From Betaproteobacteria bacterium (GTDB taxonomy: Bacteria > Pseudomonadota > Gammaproteobacteria > Burkholderiales > Burkholderiaceae_C): a DNA stretch of 45,569 bases. The position numbers and the translations under genes are program-made. The first letter of the stretch is position 1. Every line of letters begins with the position of its first letter. Below the pieces are notes generated by a model that saw only the letters and a program-made list of their open reading frames with translations, was not told the origin of the DNA and did no database searches. Location of the stretch: assembly GCA_009925925.1 (NCBI GenBank), contig RFQA01000004.1, positions 1-45,569 of the forward strand, read 5' to 3'. This document shows, piece after piece, positions 4,475-42,953 of this stretch.

Positions 4475-5698
4475 ATGACAAGCGCAAACGCAACCCCCAC
4501 TCCCGAACAAAGCGGGCCCGAAGTCCGAACCCTTCCTCTCGCCGGAATCCGCGTTGTCGAATTCACCCACATGGTCATGGGCCCCACCTGCGGCATGACG
4601 CTGGGCGACCTGGGCGCTGAGGTCATCAAGGTGGAACCCCTGGCCGGCGACAGCACCCGCAAGCTGCTGGGCAGCGGCGCCGGTTTCTACCCGCTGTTCA
4701 ACCGCAACAAGAAGAGCATTGCGGTGGACCTCAAAAGCCCGCAGGGCCGCGAGATCGTGCTCAAGCTCATTGCCACCGCCGACATCGTGAGCGAGAACTT
4801 CAAAACCGAGACCATGCAAAAGCTGGGCTTGGATTACGCTTCTCTGAGCAAGCTGGACCCGCGCCTCATTTACGTGAGCCACAAAGGTTTTCTGCCCGGC
4901 CCCTACGACCACCGCACCGCGCTGGACGAAGTGGTGCAGATGATGGGTGGCCTCGCCTACATGACCGGCCGCCCGGGTGACCCTCTGCGCGCGGGCAGTA
5001 GCGTGAATGACATCATGGGCGGCATCTTCGGTGCAGTGGGCGCCATGGCCGCGCTCATGCAGCGCCAGCAAACCGGCAAAGGCCAGGAGGTGCAAAGTGC
5101 CTTGTTCGAGAACAACATTTTCTTGGTGGCCCAGCACATGATGCAGTTCGCGGTGACCGGCAAGGCCGCCGCGCCCATGCCCGAGCGCATCTCGCCCTGG
5201 GGCATTTACGACGTGTTCAGCGTCAAGGACAAAGAGCAGATCTTTCTGGCCGTGGTGGGCGATGGGCAGTGGAAAACCTTTTGCGAGGCCTTTGCCTACG
5301 CCGACCTGTTTGCCGACCCGCGCGTCACCACCAACAACGACCGCGTGCTGGCGCGCAGCTGGCTCATCCCCGAACTGCGCACACGCCTGGCGCAGTTCAG
5401 CCGTGCAGAGCTGTCACAGCGCTTTGAGCACGCAGGCCTGCCCTTTGCCCCCATCACCGATCCGCAGCATTTGTTTGACGATCCGCACCTGCAAGCCACC
5501 GGCGGCTTGGCCCCCATGGAGCTGCCCGACGGCCGCCAGACCCAAGTGCCCTTGTTACCCCTGACGCTGGGTGGTGAGCGCCTGGGCCTTCGCTTGGACC
5601 CGCCCAAGTTGGGCGAGCACACCGACGCGCTGCTGCAGAGCCTGGGGTATACCGCAGACGATGTGGCTGCACTCCATGCGCAAGGCGTGGTGCTATGA
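4475..5698 (+). CDS. Family III (CaiB/BaiF) CoA-transferase
   Basis: Class III CoA-transferases move CoA between carboxylic acids through an aspartyl-CoA intermediate. The 407-residue length fits. Family features include VVEFTHMVMGPTCGMTLGDLGAEVIKVE near the N-terminus (seen in two adjoining blocks), the VDLKSPQGR block and the probable catalytic aspartate D179 in SVNDIMGG. The C-terminal domain carries HLFDDPHLQATGG. The substrate cannot be told; carnitine, oxalate, succinate and aromatic acid users share these motifs. I chose the ATG at 4475; a GTG at 4460 would add five residues. The last codons and the stop (GTG CTA TGA) lie inside the start of a dispersed repeat. A LysR gene follows. Confidence 0.9.
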   Translation: MTSANATPTPEQSGPEVRTLPLAGIRVVEFTHMVMGPTCGMTLGDLGAEVIKVEPLAGDSTRKLLGSGAGFYPLFNRNKKSIAVDLKSPQGREIVLKLIATADIVSENFKTETMQKLGLDYASLSKLDPRLIYVSHKGFLPGPYDHRTALDEVVQMMGGLAYMTGRPGDPLRAGSSVNDIMGGIFGAVGAMAALMQRQQTGKGQEVQSALFENNIFLVAQHMMQFAVTGKAAAPMPERISPWGIYDVFSVKDKEQIFLAVVGDGQWKTFCEAFAYADLFADPRVTTNNDRVLARSWLIPELRTRLAQFSRAELSQRFEHAGLPFAPITDPQHLFDDPHLQATGGLAPMELPDGRQTQVPLLPLTLGGERLGLRLDPPKLGEHTDALLQSLGYTADDVAALHAQGVVL

Positions 5699-5737
5699 AA
5701 AATATAGCTGCTCGCGCATATTCCACGAGCGCCAATG
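5691..5737 (+). repeat. Dispersed repeat A, copy 1
   Basis: The sequence runs TGCTAT, a short A/T-rich spacer, ATAGCTGCTCGCGCATATT, then CCACGAGCGCCAATGG. Four related copies occur in the window at 6811-6862, 32981-33037, 34038-34090 and (minus strand) 42888-42935. This copy begins inside the last codons of the CoA-transferase gene and supplies its stop codon. It runs directly into a large inverted repeat. Confidence 0.85.
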
Positions 5738-5827
5738 GGCTGAAGGGCAGTGCGTTTTACGCAGGTCAAGGAGGAGCCCGCGCAGCGGGCGGGGGACACG
5801 GAGTAAATCGCACTGCCCTTCAGCCCA
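5736..5827. repeat. Large inverted repeat, 25-base arms
   Basis: The left arm, 5736-5760, begins TGGGCTGAAGGGCAGTGCG. The right arm, 5803-5827, is its reverse complement. The outer 19 bases match perfectly and the arms extend to 25 bases with one mismatch. The 42-base centre contains a second hairpin, GCCCGC-GCA-GCGGGC (5776-5790). There is no T run, so it is not a standard terminator. It abuts repeat A on one side and ends 34 bases before the LysR start on the other. It could be a small non-autonomous element or a regulatory cruciform. Confidence 0.85.
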
Positions 5828-6797: not shown

Positions 6798-6810
6798 GAG
6801 CGAGATTGGT

Positions 6811-6862
6811 TTGCTACTAATTTAATAGCTGCTTGCGCATATTCCACGAGCGCCAGTGGCCA
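6811..6862 (+). repeat. Dispersed repeat A, copy 2
   Basis: It reads TTGCTACTAATTTA, then ATAGCTGCTTGCGCATATT and CCACGAGCGCCAGTGGCC. It has the same orientation as copy 1 and starts 14 bases after the LysR stop, so the LysR gene lies between two direct copies about 1.1 kb apart. Confidence 0.85.
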
Positions 6863-6872
6863 AAAAGACCAA

Positions 6873-11062: not shown

Positions 11063-12637
<1,575 letters not shown>

Positions 12638-31377: not shown

Positions 31378-32252
31378 GCGCCACCTCTAGCCCCATGAAT
31401 TCCAACACCGTACTCAGCGCGCAAGGGCTGGTGATGAAGTTCGGTGGCATTACTGCCACCAACAACGTGACGCTCAACCTGCAAAAAGGTGCGCGTCATG
31501 CACTCATCGGCCCCAACGGCGCCGGCAAAACCACACTCATCAACCTGTTGACCGGCGTGCTCCAACCCACGGAAGGCCGCATCGTGCTCGAGGGTGAGGA
31601 CATCACGCATTTGGCACCGCACCAGCGCGTGCGTCGTGGCATGGTGCGCACTTTCCAAATCAACCAGCTGTTTGACAGCATGAGCCCGATGCAAACCCTG
31701 GCCATGGTGGTCAGCCAGCACAAGGGTTTGGGCGGCAAGTGGTGGCAAGCGTTGGGGGCAGACCGCAGCGTGGTAGAGCGGTGCGAACAGTTGCTTGAGC
31801 AGTTCCACCTCAGCAGCGTCATGCACCAGGAAACCCGGGTGCTGGCCTACGGCAAGCGCCGCTTGCTGGAGATTGCGATTGCGCTGGCCTGCGAGCCGCG
31901 CGTGCTGTTGCTCGACGAGCCGGTGGCCGGTGTGCCTGCCGGCGAGCGCGAAGAGCTGCTGCAAACCGTGGCGGCACTGCCGGCGGATGTGTCCATCCTT
32001 TTGATTGAACATGACATGGATCTGGTCTTCAGCTTTGCAAACCGCATGACGGTGCTGGTCAACGGCACCATGCTCACCGAGGGCAACCCCGAAGAAATTG
32101 CCAATGACCCGCAGGTCAAGGCGGTGTACCTCGGCCACGCCGAAGGCGAAGGAGCGAGCGACGCCGGGCCGCCCCAAGGCGCGAAAGCCCCCCCGGGGGG
32201 CAGCGCAGCACACGCAGTGTCGAGCATGGGGGCAGGAGGTCATCATGACTGA
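31374..32252 (+). CDS. livG: Branched-chain amino-acid ABC ATPase LivG with repeat-encoded tail
   Basis: LivG is one of two cytoplasmic ATPases that drive the transporter. Walker A GPNGAGKTT lies at residues 46-54, Walker B is LLLDEPVAG, and the H-loop is IEHDMDL. The usual LSYGQ signature is altered to AYGKRRLLEIA. LivG proteins usually stop soon after the sequence found here as VKAVYLG. This one continues to 292 residues, and the extra tail (about 264-289, AGPPQGAKAPPGGSAAHAV and onwards) is encoded by dispersed repeat B. It overlaps livF by eight bases. Confidence 0.93.
   Translation: MSATSSPMNSNTVLSAQGLVMKFGGITATNNVTLNLQKGARHALIGPNGAGKTTLINLLTGVLQPTEGRIVLEGEDITHLAPHQRVRRGMVRTFQINQLFDSMSPMQTLAMVVSQHKGLGGKWWQALGADRSVVERCEQLLEQFHLSSVMHQETRVLAYGKRRLLEIAIALACEPRVLLLDEPVAGVPAGEREELLQTVAALPADVSILLIEHDMDLVFSFANRMTVLVNGTMLTEGNPEEIANDPQVKAVYLGHAEGEGASDAGPPQGAKAPPGGSAAHAVSSMGAGGHHD
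32162..32233 (+). repeat. Dispersed repeat B, copy at the livG-livF junction
   Basis: It shares CGCCGGGCCGCCCCAAG, CGGGGGGCAGCGCAGC and GCATGGGGGC with the copy inside glpK. It is read in frame as the tail of LivG and ends directly before the GGAGG that serves livF. Confidence 0.88.
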
Positions 32253-32980: not shown

Positions 32981-33037
32981 TTGCTATCAAAACAAGAGCT
33001 GCTCGCGCATATTCCGTAGGCGCCAGCGGCTCTTTTT
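32981..33037 (+). repeat. Dispersed repeat A, copy 3
   Basis: It reads TTGCTATCAAAACA, then AGAGCTGCTCGCGCATATT, then CCGTAGGCGCCAGCGGC and a T-rich end. It lies between livF and the TctC-type gene, in the same orientation as copy 4 on the other side of that gene. Confidence 0.85.
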
Positions 33038-33055
33038 GTTCCAAGGAAGACAAGC

Positions 33056-34033: not shown

Positions 34034-34037
34034 AAGT

Positions 34038-34090
34038 TGCTATGGTTTCAGGAGCTGCTCGTTCATATTGCATGGGCGCTAGCAGCCAAT
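34038..34090 (+). repeat. Dispersed repeat A, copy 4
   Basis: A more diverged copy: TGCTATGGTTTCAGG, then AGCTGCTCGTTCATATTG and CATGGGCGCTAGCAGCC. It starts four bases after the TctC-type gene's stop and is a direct repeat of copy 3, about 1.05 kb away. Confidence 0.75.
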
Positions 34091-34114
34091 TACTTATAAA
34101 TTCAAGGGTGGAAG

Positions 34115-41954: not shown

Positions 41955-42953
41955 TCAGTCCGCCTTCACCCGCCCGCCACTGATCACCGGCTTCCAGCGG
42001 GCAATCTCGGAGGCGATCAGTTTGCTGAAATTGGCGGGGGTGTCCGGCGTGGCGATGGCGCCCTCGGTATTCAGACGGGTTTTGAGTTCGGGCGAGTTCA
42101 ACGCCAGATTGATCTGGTTATTGAGCTTGGCCACCACATCTACCGGTGTGCCGGCCGGTGCCACCACGCCGTACCACTGGTCAGCCTCGAAGCCTTGGTA
42201 GCCGCTCTCCGCCACGGTGGGCAGGTCCGGCAACGTGTCCAGGCGTTTAGGACTGGAGACGGCGAGCGCACGCAGTTGCCCGGCCTTGACCTGGTTGATA
42301 ACGGCCGGTGCGCCGGTAAACAACACCTGTATCTGACCGCCGACCAGGTCGGTGACCGCAGGGGCCGTGCCGCGGTAGGGGATGTGCAGCAGCGAGCTGC
42401 CGGTTTGCAGTTTGAAATACTCCGTGGCCAAGTTGGCTGCGCTGCCATTGCCGCCAGAGCCGTAGTTCAGTTGGCCAGGTTTGGACTTGGCCAGAGCCAC
42501 CAGTTCTTTCACGTTCTTGGCCGGCACGCTGGGGTGCACCACCAGGACGTTGGGTACGCGCGCCACCCAGGCCACAGGCGCAAAGCTCTTGATGGGGTCA
42601 TAGGGCAGGTTGGGGTAGAGAGAAGGATTCACTGCCAGTGTGCCGATGTGGCCCATGAGCAGGGTGTAGCCGTCGGCCGGGGCTTTGGCCACACGGTCGG
42701 CGCCGATGGAACCGCCCGCGCCGGGCACGTTGTCGATGACCACCGGCTGGCCCCAGGCTTCGTTGAGCTTCTGGCCGATGGCGCGCGCCAGGATGTCGGT
42801 GGACCCGCCGGGTGTGAACGGCACGACCAGCCGGATGGGTTTGGCAGGGTAGGTGCCAGCAGTCTGTGCCACTGCCGATTGTGATAGAAAAAGGCCGCTA
42901 GCGCCCGTCAATATTGCGCAGGCAGCTATGAATTTGGTAGTGGTTCGGGTCAT
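41955..42953 (-). CDS. TctC/Bug-type binding protein with repeat-encoded signal peptide
   Basis: A 332-residue periplasmic carboxylate receptor. The signal peptide MTRTTTKFIAACAILTGASG, then LFLSQSAVA-QT, leads into YPAKPIRLVVPFTPGGSTDI, the Bug hallmark, then NVPGAGGSIGADRVAKAPAD. GAGGAGACACCC precedes the ATG at 42953. The bases that encode IAACAILTGASGLF match dispersed repeat A. The gene lies next to a LysR regulator, a leaderless binding protein and an oxalomesaconate-hydratase-like gene, so an aromatic or tricarboxylic acid ligand is plausible. No TctA/TctB genes are visible. Confidence 0.92.
   Translation of the reverse strand: MTRTTTKFIAACAILTGASGLFLSQSAVAQTAGTYPAKPIRLVVPFTPGGSTDILARAIGQKLNEAWGQPVVIDNVPGAGGSIGADRVAKAPADGYTLLMGHIGTLAVNPSLYPNLPYDPIKSFAPVAWVARVPNVLVVHPSVPAKNVKELVALAKSKPGQLNYGSGGNGSAANLATEYFKLQTGSSLLHIPYRGTAPAVTDLVGGQIQVLFTGAPAVINQVKAGQLRALAVSSPKRLDTLPDLPTVAESGYQGFEADQWYGVVAPAGTPVDVVAKLNNQINLALNSPELKTRLNTEGAIATPDTPANFSKLIASEIARWKPVISGGRVKAD
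42888..42935 (-). repeat. Dispersed repeat A, copy 5, inside a signal-peptide coding region
   Basis: On the minus strand it reads ATAGCTGCCTGCGCAATATTG, here split as ATAGCTGC and CTGCGCAATATTG, then ACGGGCGCTAGCGGCC and TTTTT. By hand alignment about 30 of 38 positions match copy 2, with one inserted and one deleted base that cancel and keep the frame. Confidence 0.7.

Follow-up and report, generated by a model that had tools for sequence, protein, structure and literature searches.

A dispersed DNA motif in the signal peptide of a TctC-type solute-binding protein and in further export signals of a Betaproteobacteria bacterium

The gene of a TctC-type solute-binding protein in the genome of a Betaproteobacteria bacterium (contig RFQA01000004.1 of assembly GCA_009925925.1) starts with codons that look like a dispersed DNA repeat, which raises the question whether an export signal was made from the repeat or whether the repeat came to overlie an export signal that existed already. 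The initial annotation of the locus had favoured the first answer. The gene is part of a stretch of 45,569 nucleotides which was analysed as a whole and is called the window here, and a signal peptide is evident at the N-terminus of its product. The features of the window needed in the following are:

41955..42953, minus strand: gene of the TctC-type solute-binding protein (PF03401, E=4.9e-77, 259.6 bits against a cut-off of 27)
42864..42953, minus strand: TctC signal peptide MTRTTTKFIAACAILTGASGLFLSQSAVAQ (from translation and family, cleavage point placed by eye)
42884..42940, minus strand: motif copy in the TctC signal peptide, footprint of the model (48.4 bits, E=2.1e-12)
42916..42929, minus strand: 14-bp core ATAGCTGCCTGCGC in the TctC signal peptide, an exact match to ATAGCTGCYYGCGC
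5691..5741, plus strand: motif copy at the end of a gene (47.0 bits by model, 55.3 by matrix)
6811..6868, plus strand: motif copy (59.2 bits by model, 77.2 by matrix)
32981..33041, plus strand: intergenic motif copy upstream of an open reading frame starting at about 33043 (49.9 bits)
34037..34099, plus strand: intergenic motif copy (50.3 bits by matrix, outside the best 150 of the model)

The motif is about 60 bp long and consists of a strong 14-bp core and a second GCGC block 11 bp further on, with an AT-rich tract at either side. It was described by a sequence-only model of 63 positions built from 24 aligned copies, with the TctC site and the signal copies recognised by then left out, and the information is distributed across most of the columns. 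When one mismatch was allowed, the core ATAGCTGCYYGCGC yielded 257 matches in the 3.86-Mb draft genome (99 of them exact) and the reversed pattern 5. This corresponds to a core density of about one per 15 kb; five copies of the motif lie in the 45.6-kb window. The motif is strongly over-represented in the genome, with hundreds of copies. Among the intergenic copies of the window, the one at 32981..33041 is present in all six relatives aligned and degraded in one of them (G026), and G026 is devoid of the one at 34037..34099 and has a spacer shorter by 66 bp there. A structured RNA was considered and rejected, as the consensus folds only weakly: RNAalifold suggested a hairpin of four pairs with zero compensatory pairs, and GCTAT..ATAGC was noted by eye at the left end. 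An Rfam family was rejected as well, eight loci searched at E values up to 1 yielding three matches, all to miRNA models and far under the gathering scores. At E up to 0.01, window positions 6809-6864 matched two Rhodoferax/Comamonadaceae plasmids once each and no phage. No description of the motif was recognised in the open-access library searched, including passages on repeats, palindromes, and insertions in a Rhodoferax genome paper (PMC2755013). A second, GC-rich repeat family of the CCCCCGGGGGGCAGC...GGGGGC type is found in the window at 32156-32233, 11718-11764, and 32187-32233; it matches relatives at many places over about 80 bp, among them two relatives which are poor in the motif described here (G018 and G032).

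On the minus strand the TctC site is made up of the core ATAGCTGCCTGCGC, 11 bases, and GCGCTAGCGGCC. The core is translated as ATA GCT GCC TGC GC(A), that is IAACA, and the footprint extends over 57 of the 90 signal-peptide nucleotides. The model without this site found it in the 3.86-Mb genome with 48.4 bits (E=2.1e-12) among the best 150 of 2,824 candidates, and a position matrix gave 57.6 bits as compared to 4.3 or less for 20 shuffled windows. Synonymous recodings of the signal peptide with local codon usage averaged 9.0 bits and reached 42.2 at most, and shuffles of its codons averaged -34 and reached 14.1 at most. Since none of the 20,000 recodings and none of the 5,000 shuffles equalled the score of the site, the claim of the initial annotation that these codons match the repeat, for which scoring against a genome-wide consensus and shuffled codons had been proposed, was upheld. 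The match is a genuine copy of the dispersed repeat. One detail of the annotation had to be given up, namely an inserted and a deleted base compensating each other: this site and the other signal copies align to the consensus in register and without gaps.

Nor is the repeat confined to intergenic regions, as had been assumed. From the best 150 places by the model together with the exact cores, 188 distinct places with at least 14 bits by the matrix were collected, a biased set and no census, and 43 of these were called gene-internal by a codon model trained on the window, with further copies at the starts of genes. By reading frame, 21 of the 43 internal places are antisense (L-APVEYAQAAIK), 12 sense (L-IAARAxSTGA), and 10 fall in four other frames, calls which are imperfect, as one place called antisense (L001) is in the sense frame by homology. 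The peptide APVEYAQAAIK, read from the strand opposite to the motif, occurs in the interior of about 20 proteins. At another locus (L141) an ATG within the motif apparently starts a TPS-domain protein.

At the N-termini of proteins, the motif was found in the same sense frame in ten export signals or first membrane helices, and on the opposite strand in three more. Besides the TctC protein of the window the sense-frame group comprises a cupredoxin (L008), a second TctC protein (L013), a LivK-type binding protein (L016), a transglycosylase/transpeptidase (L055), a GspD-type secretin (L093), an M16 peptidase (L127), a lipoprotein-like protein (L182), an exported-looking protein without family (L031), and the first membrane helix of a LivM-type permease (L015). 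The opposite-strand copies belong to a 7TMR-DISM/GGDEF protein (L056), the TPS-domain protein mentioned above (L141), and a protein without family (L019). Signals were assigned by position, hydropathy, and family; L015, a membrane helix, is no cleaved signal, and L055 may be a membrane anchor instead of one. The commonest reading of the motif, IAARAYSTGARG, is I-A-A-R-A-Y-S-T-G-A-R-G, with arginine at codon 4, tyrosine or histidine at codon 6, and serine at codon 7. For the ten signal copies, a set chosen by eye and compared with groups drawn from the same biased collection, arginine at codon 4 was seen in 2 of 10, whereas the other copies have it in 86 of 149 cases (p=0.04) and the sense-frame copies located outside signals in 11 of 16 (p=0.04). 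A hydrophobic residue was found at codon 6 in 9 of 10 versus 13 of 149 (p=3e-8) and at codon 7 in 7 of 10 versus 23 of 149 (p=4e-4). The mean hydropathy of the 11-residue core was 1.73 in the ten signal and helix copies and 0.41 in those 137 of the 149 other copies which are free of stops. As codons 4, 6, and 7 and the core hydropathy differ, protein function shapes the motif copies residing in signals. The notion of the initial annotation that the reading of the repeat happens to be hydrophobic is at variance with these values; the unmodified repeat would be a poor signal, with an arginine and a tyrosine or histidine inside the would-be core.

The TctC gene itself was followed through 80 distinct loci with a readable start, identity referring to the mature part; the named genomes with the nearest genes are from Rhodoferax sp. 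and unclassified Comamonadaceae. At 88.6% identity or more, the codon position of the motif is identical in all ten relatives (35-64 bits). Among the 37 loci with 75-88% identity, three score at least 30 bits, four 15-30, three 0-15, and 27 below 0, and below 75% none of 32 loci exceeds 0 bits. In the three loci with at least 30 bits the motif is two codons closer to the start (L311 and L313) or near the start codon (L325). The 27 orthologues without the motif have different N-termini which by eye are mostly signal-peptide-like, so export of the protein does not require the motif; this is the outcome of the comparison with repeat-free orthologues which the initial annotation had suggested. With starts set by rule, 31-33 residues precede the mature part in 14 loci with the motif and 20-48 in the 27 without, and as these lengths overlap the motif-bearing proteins are not longer by a constant 20 residues or so. 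Since the footprint covers so much of the signal peptide, insertion into a ready-made TctC signal peptide is no easy reading either. Where the residue was unchanged, its codon was retained slightly more often in the core (0.78) than in the signal peptide outside the core (0.74) or in the mature part (0.68), which is suggestive only. Polaromonas TctC genes (L317, L321, L323, and L325) have a match of 23-37 bits elsewhere, about three codons past the start, possibly an independent occurrence.

Whether the motif replaces protein sequence or adds to it was examined in 37 gene segments with the motif (sets of 10 and 29, two in common) by comparison with relatives lacking it. Thirty were evaluable: KefB, GspD, L050, L115, L096, and L144 had no usable motif-free relative, and the alignment of L021 was unreliable. 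The comparison omitted 12 of the 43 internal places, mostly with low score or doubtful frame, and included some N-terminal copies. Fifteen genes proved to be length-neutral, defined as a difference of 0-2 residues to every motif-free comparator, six insertion-like with gains of 8-22 residues, near the size of the motif itself, and nine small (3-7 residues) or mixed. The length-neutral genes (number of comparators in brackets) are LolD (5), ManC (2), Maf (1), LivK (1), TlyA locally (2), the RlmI-like protein (4), an acyl-CoA ligase (4), a peptide-ABC ATPase (4), the RNA methyltransferase L161 (4), NadE (4), two PutA sites (4 each), DapF (4), L192 (1), and a segment of MetH (1). Insertion-like gains were seen in all comparators for GarD, PurL, and L058, and in some for KdtA, MetG, and L014. 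Twenty protein names were checked against NCBIfam, several matching only under the curated cut-off, and L192 is without a name; CysN, SrkA, EarP, HemD, and others are probable names of further compared proteins. On family profiles, LolD occupies 220 positions of TIGR02211 with 220 residues, residue for residue, and the RlmI-like protein 386 positions of a curated profile with 384, whereas KdtA (450 on 429) and GarD (481 on 461) exceed their profiles by roughly the length of the motif. TlyA is longer in the motif part (147 on 138), and ManC (395 on 382) and NadE (557 on 541) are longer overall, which may reflect an older insertion common to the relatives. For LivK one motif-free comparator (G018) has a signal peptide of equal length and similar residues, LKLIAAAAILICAGSAFAQ as compared to LKLIAACAMLMGASSAFSQ with the motif. 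Base-level alignments revealed native sequence in the middle of the ManC copy with both flanks matching the motif, and a native tyrosine codon kept within the core in TlyA. Synonymous differences within the footprint in 14 genes were 186 towards the motif versus 26, and 692 versus 547 in a displaced control, an excess which is ascertained because the genes were selected for carrying the motif. The LolD tree is unrooted and leaves the polarity of change without a root. What the initial annotation had said of signals and repeat therefore holds for the overlap, found in ten signals or helices; origin from an inserted repeat is not supported as the usual route, given LivK and the 15 length-neutral genes.

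The reading preferred here, to which about an even chance is given, is that of a driven, uptake-sequence-like DNA motif which was accommodated in export signals already present. The motif would spread in place, overlying existing sequence without a change in length, by a drive of the DNA-uptake-sequence kind, that is biased uptake and recombination of motif-bearing DNA. Point changes would gather into the motif under the constraint of the protein. Gene-internal copies are located where one of the readings is tolerated by the protein at that place, and copies in signal peptides carry hydrophobic residues at codons 4, 6, and 7 in place of arginine, tyrosine or histidine, and serine. If LivK and the further genes compared are taken as models, the signal peptide of TctC is then most likely an older export signal which later came to carry the motif rather than one created by the repeat; its precedence would follow from the tolerance-limited gene copies and the hydrophobic codons 4, 6, and 7. 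The six insertion-like genes, the nine small or mixed ones, and the 66 extra bp at one intergenic copy count against a drive in place, and the length of the motif and its low density agree poorly with known uptake sequences.

The same gains of 8-22 residues and the 66 bp in one spacer are what a small non-autonomous mobile element of the MITE or Rickettsia-palindromic type would leave behind, which may have inserted between and within genes in open frames and made or remade the TctC signal, the length-neutral cases being old trimmed insertions. In favour of such an element, two open frames dominate among the internal places, and precedents have been published. This reading is nevertheless considered less likely, though the strongest of the rival explanations, in view of the 15 length-neutral genes, LolD among them without an extra residue on its profile, of the motif flanks around a native middle in ManC, which are hard to obtain by a single insertion, of the four-pair hairpin devoid of compensatory pairs, and of TctC N-termini which are no longer with the motif than without it.

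The distribution of the motif bears on a further alternative. Core matches number 92-343 each in the motif-rich relatives (G007, G034, G015, G001, G020, G030, and G026) and 9-19 each, about background, in the motif-poor ones (G018, G032, G004, G035, and G028), which are also the relatives without the motif in LolD. The core is distributed patchily in the family, with numbers of matches from background to 823 among 299 genomes. Among the matches listed for genomes of other genera of the family (G063, G285, G321, and G354) there are core variants, for example ATAGCTGCYRGCGC, which are possible dialects of the motif. A binding site of a chromosomal or regulatory protein, with functional gene-internal copies under dual selection, would agree with the strong core, the conserved blocks at fixed spacing, and the gain in place within genes. 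Its patchy presence inside one genus and an unclear orientation pattern make this improbable: replichore polarity was not borne out by run tests on the exact matches listed for three contigs of G034 (p=0.003, 0.95, and 0.60), and a polar look in G007 was set aside, 100 of its 246 places being listed, seemingly strand-ordered over a long stretch. A chance likeness of the signal-peptide codons to the repeat can be dismissed by the genome-wide E of 2.1e-12, the shuffled windows, the 20,000 recodings, and the motif in ten orthologues, even if IAACA-type runs suit signal peptides and recodings average 9 bits as compared to -34 for shuffled codons.

Uptake of DNA directs attention to ComEC (PF03772), which was found in the genome studied (E=3.7e-54) and also in motif-poor genomes, and was not found in the motif-bearing genomes G020 (88% complete) and G026 (99% complete). 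Its presence does not track the motif, and it was rejected as a discriminator. Among motif-bearing relatives G026 scores lowest for the motif in LolD, TlyA, and ManC, and only one relative scores lower in KefB; the low-scoring copies at its loci L238, L266, L250, and L282 look as if decaying in a genome with no ComEC detected. Being one genome, this coincidence proves nothing.

On the basis of the sequences it is held with moderate confidence that the motif works like an uptake-type driven motif, and it is not filed as a member of that family. The wider proposal, an uptake-type recognition sequence of Comamonadaceae which is longer than those known, rewrites genes in place, and has left its imprint on about ten export signals as well as on dozens of protein segments in this genome, is tentative and has less than an even chance. 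If it were true, a drive at the DNA level would have produced peptide signatures, LIAxCAxxxGA in export signals and APVEYAQAAIK in helices. If the motif enters genes without change in length, protein sequence would be shaped in part by a force unrelated to protein function, signal peptides, which are tolerant of variation, would be natural sites for it, and a large environmental family would have a candidate sequence for recognising its own DNA during exchange.

Uptake sequences are described as over-represented within and between genes with one orientation preferred in reading frames (PMC2346458), have been suggested to evolve through point changes in pre-existing sequence (PMC1939737), with recombination argued as their origin (PMC2397512), and form dialects among relatives (PMC3630211). 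Like the DUS and USS of Neisseriaceae and Pasteurellaceae the present motif is over-represented in and between genes, and its length-neutral appearance in 15 of the 30 evaluable genes would agree with what has been described for them (PMC1939737, PMC2397512). In contrast to DUS and USS, which have 10-12 bp, about 1,500 to several thousand copies, and a density of about one per 1-2 kb, it has about 60 bp, some hundreds of copies, and a core about every 15 kb, and some of its copies look inserted. At 971-1009 of locus L030 (G000 contig 432) two inverted cores form a near-perfect hairpin followed by a T-run, a terminator-like arrangement which resembles reported paired uptake sequences. With the Rickettsia palindromic and enterobacterial RU/MITE elements the motif shares that a repeat is read in-frame inside proteins in more than one frame. 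Those elements are inserted and about 100-170 bp long, whereas the motif with its 60 bp is length-neutral in half of the 30 evaluable genes and in one genome occupies ten signals or helices at N-termini, several of which belong to conserved families. Within the literature searched, the number of export signals per genome, their occurrence in conserved families, the hydrophobic adjustment, and the evidence for frequent overwriting in place of insertion are new.
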